Source: a virus. Taken from it: a stretch of 55,049 bases of DNA. The position numbers and the translations under genes are program-made. Shown piece by piece: positions 12,741 through 20,528 of this stretch. A model generated the notes under the pieces. It was not told where the DNA came from. It was given only the letters and a program-made list of their open reading frames with translations, and ran no database searches. Each line of letters opens with the position of its first letter. Within the stretch, counting starts at the first letter, position 1. Where the stretch lies: the IMG/VR virus record IMGVR_UViG_3300035180_000125, positions 1-55,049 of that record; one strand, 5' to 3'.

Positions 12741-13088
12741 ATGGATCGCATATTCGTCTTTGGATCGAATTTAGCAGGCAGGCATGGTAGAGGTGCAGCT
12801 TTAGACGCAAAACGGCTCTACGGGGCTGTATATGGTGTTGGCGAGGGTCCAACAGGGATGGCCTATGCCATTCCAACAAAAGACCACAACATTCGCACGC
12901 TGCCGCTTGACACTGTAGAGAAGCATGTGAGAAAATTCATCCTCTACGCAAGGCAGAACTGGAATAAGAAATTCCTAGTGACGCGGGTGGGCTGCGGCCT
13001 TGCCGGATACACAGACGCAGACATATCGCCTATGTTCAAGTTTGCGCCATCTAATTGTGACCTCCCAGACGGGTGGAGAAAGTACTGA
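12741..13088 (+). CDS. A1S_2505-type phage protein, macrodomain-like
   Basis: ATG 12741 follows TTGGAG. The 115-residue product matches a widespread small phage family: IFVFGSNLAGRHGRGAAL near the N-terminus, GPTGMAYAIPTKDHNIRTLP in the middle, and FLVTRVGCGLAGYTDADISP, then PSNCDLPDGW, at the end. The glycine-rich GSN...GRGAA start and the late VGCGLAG are reminiscent of macrodomains, which bind ADP-ribose, but the assignment is by pattern only. The function is unknown. The presence of an NAD+-repair pair 4 kb away makes an ADP-ribose-related role worth testing. Confidence 0.75.
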   Translation: MDRIFVFGSNLAGRHGRGAALDAKRLYGAVYGVGEGPTGMAYAIPTKDHNIRTLPLDTVEKHVRKFILYARQNWNKKFLVTRVGCGLAGYTDADISPMFKFAPSNCDLPDGWRKY

Positions 13089-13089
13089 C

Positions 13090-13208
13090 GTGTTTTGTTG
13101 GCATAAATGGGCAAGTGGTCTGGGTTAAACTGGTGTAAGACGTGGAGAACTTTCCTCCAGTTCAGGACTTGCGAAAAGTGTGGTAAGACTCAGCAAAGGA
13201 GCGTTTAA
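13090..13208 (+). pseudogene. Small CxxC protein, frameshifted
   Basis: GTG 13090 starts VFCWHKW; the conserved end KTWRTFLQFRTCEKCGKTQQ runs to TAA 13206-13208 in a neighbouring frame. One extra G in the GGG run 13109-13111 would give a 39-residue protein of a common phage family (WHKW...CEKCGKTQ). The paired cysteines suggest zinc binding. The second half alone also has an ATG at 13107. Confidence 0.5.
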
Positions 13209-13621
13209 TGAAAGATTTAGAACTGGCAAGGGGTCTGGCAGAGAAATTCCACGCTGGGCAGATGTACGGACGCCATCCGTATATGTACCATCTTGAAATG
13301 GTTTCTTCGGCACTGAAAGATGACGGTGATGAACGTCTTGCAATAATTGGAATGCTTCACGACATGCTAGAAGACACAGCCTGCAAGGTTGAGCTTCTTG
13401 AAGCGTTGTTTGAAGACAACATCGTTGAGGCTGTTCTTGCCATTACTCACAAAAAGAGTTGGCAGTCACGGGAGGAATACCTCACAGAAGTGAAGGCGAA
13501 TCCTCTGGCTAAGAAAGTCAAGCTTGTGGACTTGATGATGAATATGCGAGAAAGCATCCTGCGAGGCGACATGAAGCGCGTAAAGAAGTACGCCGAACAA
13601 ATCGCGTTGCTGGCAAAATGA
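13208..13621 (+). CDS. HD-domain hydrolase, SpoT/Mesh1-like
   Basis: A 137-residue HD phosphohydrolase. The metal-binding set follows the (p)ppGpp hydrolase pattern: FHAGQ at about 15, YHLEMV at about 27, LHDMLEDT at about 50-57, and the closing KLVDLMMNM (KLxDxxxN) at about 105. It could hydrolyse alarmones or another phosphorylated nucleotide and so keep host synthesis running; the substrate is not shown. ATG 13208 overlaps the previous stop (TAATG) and follows AAAGGAG. Confidence 0.75.
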   Translation: MKDLELARGLAEKFHAGQMYGRHPYMYHLEMVSSALKDDGDERLAIIGMLHDMLEDTACKVELLEALFEDNIVEAVLAITHKKSWQSREEYLTEVKANPLAKKVKLVDLMMNMRESILRGDMKRVKKYAEQIALLAK

Positions 13622-16196: not shown

Positions 16197-16272
16197 GCGT
16201 CTGTAGCTCAAAGGATAGAGCAAGAGTGTTCTAGGCTACGGGTTGTGGGTTCGAGTCCTACCAGACGCGCCA
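16197..16272 (+). tRNA. tRNA, anticodon TCT (Arg) with an imperfect anticodon stem
   Basis: A 76-nt cloverleaf with encoded CCA. The acceptor stem GCGTCTG/CAGACGC is perfect, the D stem GCTC/GAGC is perfect with an 8-nt loop, and the T stem GTGGG/CCTAC with loop TTCGAGT is good. The anticodon arm is AGAGT-GTTCTAG-GCTAC: by position the anticodon is TCT (16230-16232, reading AGA), but only three of five stem pairs form. The arm also contains CTA one base along, so a suppressor reading cannot be fully excluded. It would supply rare Arg codons. Confidence 0.8.
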
Positions 16273-17247: not shown

Positions 17248-18033
17248 ATGCTTTCTGCAAAGAGTGTGACGGGGTTGGAAACCCCTGTTAAAGTGTGGAA
17301 GTTCCCGTGCGGAGAAGTAGGTGTCAAGATCGAAACTGGCTTTACGCACGGGGAAGTTGAGATTACACTCCTGTGGGAAGGAAATGACGACCTTCTAGCC
17401 CTTGGGCAACTGGTTGATGCGCTTCGACACAACGACGTGCAACACATCGCGCTGAACATTCCGTACTTTCCATACTCGCGCCAAGACCACCGTTGCAACC
17501 AAGGAGAGGGCTATGCCCTTAAGATGGTTGCAGCCTACATCAACAGCTTGAACTTCTCAAGCGTCTACACAATGGACGCCCACAGCTACGTTCTTGAAGC
17601 AGTCGTCAACAACCTTGTTGTGACAGAACAGGCTGAGTGTGCGTGGAGCCTGCCAAGTTTCGATATCTTTGTTGCACCTGACGCTGGTGCAAGTAAGAAG
17701 ATTTTCAAGCTGACTTCAAACCGGCCTGAATCGAAAGTGCTTGTCGCAGACAAGAAGCGAGACTATACTGGGAAGATCGTTGACACTACTGTGTATGGTG
17801 GCGAAGAAATCACTGGAAAGACAGTATGTGTTGTCGATGACCTGTGCGATGGCGGTGTGACGTTTATTGAGCTTGCAAAAGTGCTGAAGAAGCACAAGCC
17901 AAAGACGATGGCACTATACGTTACACACGGATTTTTCACGAAAGGTGCTGAAGTTCTAACACAGTTTTACGATACAATCTACGTCTCGAACCTGATGAGC
18001 AACGCGGCGAAGCCGCACGTAAAGGAGATTTGA
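17248..18033 (+). CDS. PRPP-synthetase-like enzyme, probable ADP-ribose pyrophosphate synthetase (NARP1 Adps)
   Basis: A 261-residue protein of the ribose-phosphate pyrophosphokinase fold. It shows the ATP-binding YFPYSRQDHR (about 72-81) and a phosphoribosyl loop VVDDLCDGGVTF (about 194-205), where the usual sequence is DDxxDTGGT. It is shorter than bacterial Prs (about 310). It is followed directly by an NAMPT-like gene with no NMN adenylyltransferase nearby, the arrangement of the phage NARP1 pathway. There Adps puts pyrophosphate on ADP-ribose and Namat adds nicotinamide to regenerate NAD+. Ordinary PRPP synthesis is the alternative. GAGG 8 bp upstream supports ATG 17248. Confidence 0.8.
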   Translation: MLSAKSVTGLETPVKVWKFPCGEVGVKIETGFTHGEVEITLLWEGNDDLLALGQLVDALRHNDVQHIALNIPYFPYSRQDHRCNQGEGYALKMVAAYINSLNFSSVYTMDAHSYVLEAVVNNLVVTEQAECAWSLPSFDIFVAPDAGASKKIFKLTSNRPESKVLVADKKRDYTGKIVDTTVYGGEEITGKTVCVVDDLCDGGVTFIELAKVLKKHKPKTMALYVTHGFFTKGAEVLTQFYDTIYVSNLMSNAAKPHVKEI

Positions 18034-18034
18034 T

Positions 18035-19648
18035 TTGAAGAGCTTCCCCCTGACCCAAGCCGATTTCTACAAGCTGTCGCACAAGAAGTTCATGGTCGAT
18101 GGCGCGACAAAGATTTACGCCAACTTCACTGCCCGCAGCGGTAAGTACGCCAAGTGGGCCGACGACAAGAAGCGCGTTGTCTTTGCCGGCCTGCAACACT
18201 TCATCAAGGAATTCTTGATCGAAGAATGGAACCGCGAATTCTTCAACAAACCGAAGGCTGAAGTCATCGCCAAGTTCAAGCGCCGTGTTGAAACCTCGCT
18301 AGGAGTCGGCGCAGTAAGCATGGCTCACTTCGAGGCCCTGCACGACCTGGGCTACCTGCCGCTGAAGATCAAGGCCCTGCCTGAAGGCTCGAAAGTCCCG
18401 TTCAAGGTGCCGCTGCTGACCATCGTCAACACTGATGAAGACTTTGCATGGTTGGTCACGTATATCGAGACAGTGCTTTCGACTGAGCTGTGGGCAACCA
18501 CGACGGCTGCAACGACTGCGTACCAGTTCCTGACGCTGTGCAACAGCTTTGCAGACCAAACTGTTGGCAATCGCAACCACGTCATGTTCCAGTGTCACGA
18601 CTTCTCTGCCCGTGGCGTTATCGGCCGCAATGGCGGCGCGCTGACGGGTCTGGGCCACCTGATGTCGTTCAGCGGTACTGACACGGTTGCAGCAATCGAC
18701 CTCGTTGAAGATTACTACAACGTCGATGCAAGCAAGTATTTCATTGCTGCGTCTGTGCCTGCAAGCGAACACAGCGTTACGTCGCTGGGCAGCAGCGTGC
18801 TTGGTGAATTTGACACAATCAAGAGCTGGGTCACTGAAGCGTACCCGACTGGCATCGTCTCTGTCGTTTCAGACACCTATGACTACTGGCGAGTTCTTAC
18901 CGAGTTCCTGCCGGCGATGAAGGATGACATCGAAGCTCGAAAGCCAAACGAACTCGGACTCGCAAAGGTTGTTGTGCGGCCTGACAGTGGCGACCCTGCC
19001 CACGTTATTGCGGGCTACCGCCCTGATGAGTATTACGTCGAAAACATCAAGTTTCCAGGGGAGTACGCTATCGGAGAGGTAAAATACAAGACTGTTTACA
19101 CGTGCCGGCTGACCGGAAAAGAGTTGACAGAGAACGAAGTCAAGGGTAGTATTGAGCTTCTGTGGGAGACGTTTGGCGGAACGGTCAACAAGTTTGGCTA
19201 CCGCGAACTCGCTCCGTGCATTGGCTTGATCTACGGCGACAGCATCACCTTGGAACGCGCTGATGACATCTTCCGACGACTGCAACAACGTGGCTTCGCA
19301 AGCAACAATGTCGTATTCGGTGTGGGGTCTTACACATACCAGATGGCGAGTCGTGATACACTCGGCATGGCAGTAAAAGCCACAGCAGCAGTGGTTGACG
19401 GACAGCTCAAGGAGCTTTTCAAAGACCCTGCAACGGATGATGGCACCAAGAAGTCTGCTCGCGGTCTGATGCGAGTTGAACTGATCGACGGCGAGTACGT
19501 TATGTTCGACCGCCAATCGGAAGAGCAAGAGGCCGCTGGCGAGCTTCGCACTGCCTTTGAAGATGGTGCTCTGCTGATCGACGAAACGTTTGAAGTCATT
19601 CGAGCACGAGTTCAAGACATCGTGCTTGAAGAAGACGCAACCAACTAA
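18035..19648 (+). CDS. nadV: Nicotinamide phosphoribosyltransferase-like (NARP1 Namat or NadV)
   Basis: A 537-residue NAMPT-family enzyme with a TTG start 7 bp after AAAGGAG, overlapping the upstream Shine-Dalgarno/stop region, so the pair is co-translated. The catalytic His block is SVPASEHSV (His near 245; human His247) and VRPDSGDP (about 313) is the phosphoribosyl-binding block. In NARP1 the homologue joins nicotinamide to ADP-ribose pyrophosphate and forms NAD+ in one step; in plain salvage it makes NMN from PRPP. The adjacent Prs-like partner favours NARP1. Either way it counters NAD+ loss, for example from Thoeris, DSR or Sir2-type defence. Confidence 0.9.
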   Translation: MKSFPLTQADFYKLSHKKFMVDGATKIYANFTARSGKYAKWADDKKRVVFAGLQHFIKEFLIEEWNREFFNKPKAEVIAKFKRRVETSLGVGAVSMAHFEALHDLGYLPLKIKALPEGSKVPFKVPLLTIVNTDEDFAWLVTYIETVLSTELWATTTAATTAYQFLTLCNSFADQTVGNRNHVMFQCHDFSARGVIGRNGGALTGLGHLMSFSGTDTVAAIDLVEDYYNVDASKYFIAASVPASEHSVTSLGSSVLGEFDTIKSWVTEAYPTGIVSVVSDTYDYWRVLTEFLPAMKDDIEARKPNELGLAKVVVRPDSGDPAHVIAGYRPDEYYVENIKFPGEYAIGEVKYKTVYTCRLTGKELTENEVKGSIELLWETFGGTVNKFGYRELAPCIGLIYGDSITLERADDIFRRLQQRGFASNNVVFGVGSYTYQMASRDTLGMAVKATAAVVDGQLKELFKDPATDDGTKKSARGLMRVELIDGEYVMFDRQSEEQEAAGELRTAFEDGALLIDETFEVIRARVQDIVLEEDATN

Positions 19649-19655
19649 GGAAACT

Positions 19656-19908
19656 ATGGTAAACTCCGCACTTGCTTTCACTTCGTCATTCCTGTTTTTC
19701 GCGCTCAAGTCGTGGCAACAGTTTAATGTAGTCCACAAGAAATACTGGTGGATTCTGCCGACAAGTATGGCGATGGCGCTGTGTGAAGTTTACGTAGTTG
19801 CTACGGTGGCTAAAATGGCTGGGCGTTATCGCCCTTGTCATTGGTTTCGGAGCGGGACTTGGATCAATGCTTGCAACATGGTTGCATAGCAAGTTAATGG
19901 AGAAATGA
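19656..19908 (+). pseudogene. Small multi-pass membrane protein, frameshifted
   Basis: ATG 19656 follows AAGGAAAC. Hydrophobic segments SALAFTSSFLFFAL and WWILPTSMAMALCEVYVVAT are in the first frame. A third, GVIALVIGFGAGLGSMLATW, follows one frame over and leads to WLHSKLMEK and TGA 19906-19908. Removing one A from the AAAA at 19812-19815 restores VATVAKWLGVIAL and an 83-residue three-helix protein. It sits between the NAD+ genes and dNMP kinase; its role is unknown. Confidence 0.6.
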
Positions 19909-20528
19909 GAGCAATGATTGTTGAATCCCCGTCGGTTATGCCGCAACTCGGTTTTGGAGAACTTTACAAGACCTCATTTTTCGACCCACCTAAGCCGAAG
20001 ATCATCGGCTTGTCTGGCAAGGCTCGCAGCGGGAAAGATACAGCCGCTGGAATGCTGAAGACTGCATTCAACGCAAAAACAGTTGCGTTCGCCGACCCAA
20101 TTCGAGACGCTATGCGCGTGCTATTCGACTTCAATGAAGAGCACTTCAATGGCAGTTTGAAAGAAGTTGTCGTGCCGTGGATTGGAAAGTCTCCGCGCCA
20201 ACTGATGCAGACGCTCGGAACAGAGTGGGGCCGCAACATCGTCAACAACGATATCTGGCGAATCCTAGCAGCCCGAAAGATCGAACAAATCACTGAAGAC
20301 TCCAACCATGCAGTCGTCACAGATGTGCGGTTTGAGAACGAAGCTAAAATGATTCGCTCAATGGGTGGCCGAGTATGGCACATCGTCCGAGACAGCATTC
20401 CTACCGTCAGCGCACACGCCAGTGAGGCTGGTATCGCTTTCCATGACGGCGATGTCATCATCCATAACAACGGCACCCTCAAAGACCTGTTCGACTCGGT
20501 GTGCGATAGCTTCTTAGAGGTAGCATGA
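19905..20528 (+). CDS. Deoxynucleoside monophosphate kinase
   Basis: A 207-residue P-loop kinase. GLSGKARSGKDTAA (about 35-48) is the Walker A, followed by FADPIRDAMRVLFDFNEEHF, LMQTLGTEWGRNIV and VTDVRFENEA, the pattern of phage dNMP kinases (T4 gp1 type). It phosphorylates dNMPs to dNDPs and feeds dTTP synthesis after ThyX. The start is ATG 19905 or 19914; the former overlaps the previous stop. Confidence 0.9.
   Translation: MRAMIVESPSVMPQLGFGELYKTSFFDPPKPKIIGLSGKARSGKDTAAGMLKTAFNAKTVAFADPIRDAMRVLFDFNEEHFNGSLKEVVVPWIGKSPRQLMQTLGTEWGRNIVNNDIWRILAARKIEQITEDSNHAVVTDVRFENEAKMIRSMGGRVWHIVRDSIPTVSAHASEAGIAFHDGDVIIHNNGTLKDLFDSVCDSFLEVA

Follow-up and report, generated by a model that had tools for sequence, protein, structure and literature searches.

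The Adps-Namat pair of SPbetaL1 is the biochemically and structurally solved NARP1 system, and a selectivity clamp in it reads the adenine of ADPR-PP (PMC12774641). For one part of this clamp, the selectivity-clamp loop (SCL), the published rule is an Arg, or a Lys/Tyr plus a following stacking residue (PMC12774641). The NrsA-NrsB pair of the Vibrio phage ICP1 raises NAD+ under the Nezha defence (PMC11559045), and bacterial NARP1 exists and works in Paenibacillus (PMC12774641). Another type of NAD+ salvage, NARP2, is represented by KVP40, in which NadV accompanies phage NMN adenylyltransferases (NMNATs) in the Nampt route.

We analysed a stretch of viral DNA of 55,049 bases (hereafter the window), which is a complete IMG/VR entry and probably a fragment of a larger viral genome. 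A gene pair in it shares gene order and catalytic core with SPbetaL1 but differs in identity (45-48% in Namat and 35% in Adps), in the clamp residues (Tyr/Met/Ser against Phe/Tyr/Thr in SPbetaL1) and in about 40 extra residues (329-368) of the Namat-like protein. With ICP1, the window has in common the gene order, a loop of the CDG type and the residues GKY in the SCL, whereas NrsB retains Tyr at clamp position 7 and reads TCD in place of SRD. The likeness to KVP40 is limited to the Nampt superfamily and a role in NAD+ salvage; KVP40 has NMNAT-type genes, no Prs/Adps gene and no clamp, and its NadV belongs to another clade. Taken together, we consider it highly likely that the pair is a NARP1 module (Adps plus Namat) that would let the phage rebuild NAD+ after the action of a defence NADase. 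It very probably adds one slightly divergent member, with a small lineage-specific change in the clamp, to a pathway already known, and is not a new system.

Genomic context of the gene pair

The virus is a tailed phage, with genes for a tape-measure protein, DNA polymerase, primase-helicase, ribonucleotide reductase (RNR) and a ThyX-like protein, and the pair sits within a replication and nucleotide-metabolism block, near the genes for RNR, ThyX and a dNMP kinase. The sequence-only reading had described a PRPP-synthetase-like gene with the loop DDLCDGGV followed at 1 bp by a NAMPT-like gene, and this description was confirmed. Both open reading frames are present (Table 1); the first stops at a TGA (18031-18033) and the second begins at 18035, which leaves the adps-like gene directly beside the namat-like gene, as in NARP1. 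The two products match PHROG 619 (ribose-phosphate pyrophosphokinase, E 2e-75) and PHROG 448 (nicotinamide phosphoribosyl transferase, E 1e-181), respectively. Comparison with the nearest relative revealed purifying selection on both genes (dN 0.14 / dS 1.6 and dN 0.06 / dS 2.0); because dS is near saturation, these values indicate a dN/dS clearly below 1 and nothing finer. Scans for promoters and terminators gave chance-level results, PADLOC returned no useful match, and a search for an RyR-domain cADPR hydrolase partner (PF02026) found none.

Table 1. Features of the gene pair and its right-hand neighbour (window positions)
Feature	Position	Strand	Basis
adps-like gene (putative ADP-ribose pyrophosphate synthetase, Prs fold, 261 aa, ATG start)	17248..18033	+	family matches, tree, AlphaFold model
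Altered ribose-5-phosphate loop DDLCDGGV, residues 197-204	17836..17859	+	alignment
Ribosome-binding site AAAGGAG of the second gene	18021..18027	+	sequence; precedes TTG
namat-like gene (putative nicotinamide ADP-ribose transferase, 537 aa, TTG start)	18035..19648	+	families, trees, model
Selectivity-clamp loop (SCL) FTARSGKYAKW..., Lys then Tyr as in ICP1 NrsB	18125..18178	+	alignment
EHSV with catalytic histidine His246	18767..18778	+	alignment; His invariant
Selectivity-clamp helix (SCH) GSYTYQMASRD	19325..19357	+	alignment
Deoxynucleotide monophosphate (dNMP) kinase, neighbour outside the pathway, right edge of the variable site	19905..20528	+	PF21448, E 2e-33

Two further elements were observed upstream. 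A tRNA-Arg (tct) gene at 16197-16272, between the DNA polymerase and the pair, also occurs in the related contigs L051, L054 and L055 and is missing from most relatives. At 12741-13088 lies a gene for an A1S_2505-family protein (NF049995, E 3e-42), whose GSNLAGRHGRGAA stretch looks similar to a macro-domain; phage Adele has a macro-domain gene near NARP1.

Phylogeny and ribose-5-phosphate loop of the first protein

In true Prs enzymes, this loop grips the 5'-phosphate of ribose-5-phosphate (R5P). The alignment showed DDMIDTGGT in E. coli Prs and DDLCDGGVT in the window protein, which carries CDGG in place of the DTGG-type loop expected of Prs plus Nampt pairs. The loop is variable among the seven true Prs proteins compared, but CDGG was found in none of them, whereas it is common to the pairs of the window, Bas62 and Lewan; ICP1 has the near match CDGA, and SPbetaL1 has SSFGG. 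The Bas62 record was used as a stand-in for Bas63, which is named in PMC12774641, and the closeness of the two pairs was assumed. The AlphaFold model of the protein reached a pLDDT of 86, and its nearest solved folds are all Prs or Prs-associated (Z 20-22).

A tree of 31 proteins placed the first protein on the Adps side, split from the seven true Prs by a 98/97 branch. Nesting the window clade inside Prs cost 93 log units and was rejected in the topology test (p 3e-8), and a basal position in which the clade is merely grouped with all Prs was disfavoured (p 0.013). Clustering with true PRPP synthetases, the outcome that the sequence-only reading had named as contrary to its proposal, was not observed. 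The loop and the tree position agree, and they support the assignment of this protein as a putative Adps rather than a Prs.

The second protein and its selectivity clamp

Among solved proteins, the best sequence relatives of the second protein were SPbetaL1 Namat (423 bits) and H. ducreyi NadV (377 bits), with the Xcc and mammalian Nampts at 186 bits or less. In the trees, a 100/100 branch groups it on the Namat side with SPbetaL1, the Bas62 relative and ICP1 NrsB, the last being its nearest tested relative, and separates it from the KVP40/KP27/Burkholderia Nampt proteins. Its nesting among phage Nampts was rejected (p 5e-6), and a basal placement of the window clade within the Namat side, adjacent to Nampt, was not (p 0.11). 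Thus, as the sequence-only reading had anticipated, both proteins fall on the Adps/Namat sides when compared with known Adps/Namat and Prs/NadV proteins. The structural comparison bore out that reading in its top match in the PDB, SPbetaL1 Namat (9w5w; Z 42.1, rmsd 1.6, 44% identity), with ordinary Nampts at Z about 37; however, the fold alone is indecisive, because the match to H. ducreyi NadV (9ke8, Z 41.1) is nearly equal. The latter enzyme (L021:3828-5315) was crystallised with NMN and yet shares the Namat side of the tree and the fold, which means that the substrate cannot be established from clade or fold.

The clamp residues were aligned on the SPbetaL1 numbering. The window protein retains the catalytic core, Ser190, Ser391, an aromatic residue at 392 (Tyr) and Tyr394; at these four positions Nampts have Gly, Gly, Gly or Ala, and Leu. 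In the SCL, Lys37-Tyr38 agrees with the published rule. In the SCH, the NARP1 motif GSX..X.X.TRD calls for aromatic residues at positions 3 and 7; the window has Tyr at position 3, Met at position 7 (residue 396, Tyr in SPbetaL1 and Tyr/Phe in the pattern) and Ser for Thr398. The Met/Ser combination was also found in relatives with 89% and 61% identity and, since it is common to three diverged members, it is a kept lineage trait and not a random loss. With this variant, one could readily probe to what extent the published selectivity rule is required.

In H. ducreyi NadV, positions 391, 392, 396 and 362 all deviate from the Namat pattern, and no adps gene accompanies it on its 5.6-kb plasmid. 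The enzyme is possibly a natural reversion to Nampt, and the loss of the clamp and the absent adps look like one.

Search for an NMN adenylyltransferase

The sequence-only reading had noted no NMNAT near the pair and had named an NMNAT elsewhere in the phage as evidence to the contrary. In a profile search, the NMNAT domain PF01467 was absent from the whole 55-kb record, itself a fragment beyond which an NMNAT may conceivably lie, and from two pair-bearing relatives of 87.5 and 87.8 kb, which agrees with that observation. The domain was present in 0 of 22 viral records with Adps-Namat, several of which (the window included) are or may be fragments, versus three of three Nampt phages (KVP40, XZ1 and KP27).

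Presence and absence of the pair at a single site

Contigs that encode a related DNA polymerase fall into two sets, with and without the pair. Near relatives that have it show the polymerase first, then at least one small gene, followed by adps, namat and the dNMP kinase; L052, L053, L057, L061 and L064 show nothing of the pair, and their small genes lead straight into the dNMP kinase. The distance from the polymerase stop to the inside of the kinase gene is accordingly 1.5-2.2 kb in pair-less contigs versus 3.8-4.6 kb in pair-bearing ones. The pair was gained or lost as a single block between the same flanking genes, a pattern that would be expected of a counter-defence cassette, although it is not proof of one. 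These data broaden the range of NARP1 to a group of uncultivated phages in which the pair comes and goes at one site, and the relatives with and without it provide a natural comparison of counter-defence. More distant Namats were found in G016, G025, G026 and G027, three of which grouped together in a quick tree, apart from the window clade and nearer bacterial proteins; in one locus (L115, record G025), the Namat-like match contains one in-frame TAA.

In the window, the dNMP kinase comes second among the annotated genes downstream of the pair and is preceded by a small open reading frame (19656-19889). A phage dNMP kinase triggers the Kongming NADase defence (PMC12774641). We considered a general link between NARP1 and the kinase and discarded it, given that outside this phage group only one pair-bearing record (Felixounavirus) has the kinase. 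A functional tie between them would be a guess, because the kinase is present in pair-less relatives and absent from most other NARP1 phages.

Upstream of the DNA polymerase, 13208-13621 encodes a RelA/SpoT-like HD_4 hydrolase. Most of the near relatives with the pair, though not every one, also have it, and the pair-less near relatives compared all lack it; these numbers are too small for a conclusion.

Alternative explanations

The pair could be an ordinary PRPP synthetase with a Nampt (NadV), in which case it would make NMN and the host NMNAT would complete NAD+. This would agree with the labels that the proteins still bear in curated libraries (ribose-phosphate diphosphokinase and nicotinate/nicotinamide phosphoribosyltransferase), with the loss of the second clamp aromatic in the window protein, and with H. 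ducreyi NadV being a Namat-side protein able to form NMN. However, the tree tests rejected the Prs clade, the R5P loop is altered, and H. ducreyi NadV has gone further, having lost the first clamp aromatic, Ser391 and Ser362, all of which the window protein keeps, along with lacking an Adps partner; we thus regard this explanation as highly improbable. A Namat with the Met/Ser clamp might instead use ADPR-PP and PRPP about equally, yielding both NAD+ and NMN. SPbetaL1 Namat already has a PRPP activity of about half that of human Nampt, and its clamp mutants lose the ADPR-PP reaction only (PMC12774641); moreover, the conservation of Met/Ser in three diverged members speaks against a random loss. 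On the other hand, single clamp changes in SPbetaL1 Namat cost only 1.3- to 1.7-fold (PMC12774641), and other phage pairs also have Met (UPM2146) or Cys (PA22062) at SCH position 7, so that such a dual use of donors appears unlikely.

The location of the pair among RNR, ThyX and dNMP kinase genes would also suit an auxiliary metabolic role, namely supplying NAD+ for phage nucleotide synthesis and not counter-defence. We find this very unlikely, since close relatives with the same replication block lack the pair, and since a counter-defence function of these enzymes has been proven for SPbetaL1 (PMC12774641) and ICP1 (PMC11559045).

The NARP1 assignment is supported by the phylogeny, the altered R5P loop, most of the SPbetaL1-type clamp residues, the absence of NMNAT and the gene order. 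By analogy with the tested homologues, from which the substrates, the chemistry and the counter-defence role are taken, a host defence NADase would cleave NAD+ to nicotinamide and ADP-ribose during infection; Adps would transfer pyrophosphate from ATP onto ADP-ribose to give ADPR-PP, and Namat would join nicotinamide and ADPR-PP directly into NAD+ without an NMN adenylyltransferase. This would allow the phage to replicate even though the defence is meant to starve the cell. That the phage would meet Thoeris, DSR, SIR2 or similar defences in its host, as the sequence-only reading proposed, is an inference.

Bacterial chromosomal relatives nearly always adjoin an NrtR-like gene

A genome scan gave the best 80 bacterial relatives (loci L119-L198), with 47-52% identity in Namat and including Acinetobacter, Achromobacter, Marinomonas and Chromobacterium. 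An Adps-like gene was present in 77 of these loci, nearly always with the loop DDICDGG, and 76 had a neighbour gene matching one Acinetobacter gene (L017:5549-6316). All eight such neighbours examined, the Acinetobacter one included, correspond to NrtR (Nudix plus NrtR_WHD in Pfam), and an NMNAT HIGH-type motif was found in none of the 80 loci. The best database match (Acinetobacter, 50%) had been considered as a Prs-NadV-NMNAT operon, which was rejected with the identification of its third gene as NrtR; the public label of this neighbour, "bifunctional NMN adenylyltransferase/ADP-ribose pyrophosphatase", is wrong. These "prs-nadV" pairs resemble that of the window in the CDGG loop and the clamp aromatics, and differ in being chromosomal and adjoining NrtR; they are putative NARP1 pairs.

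It is conceivable, though distinctly unlikely, that the window lineage is a NARP1 subtype in which the Tyr/Met/Ser clamp changed the choice of donor (ADPR-PP plus PRPP, or another ADP-ribose derivative), selected in at least three diverged phages, and that it arose as a phage offshoot of the NrtR-adjacent Adps-Namat operon of many Proteobacteria. In the literature searched, NARP1 and NrtR were not found named together. ADP-ribose binding makes NrtR release DNA (PMC12735969). The association of the close chromosomal homologues with NrtR points to NAD+ repair fed by ADP-ribose as the possible function of some operons that now bear the prs-nadV annotation.
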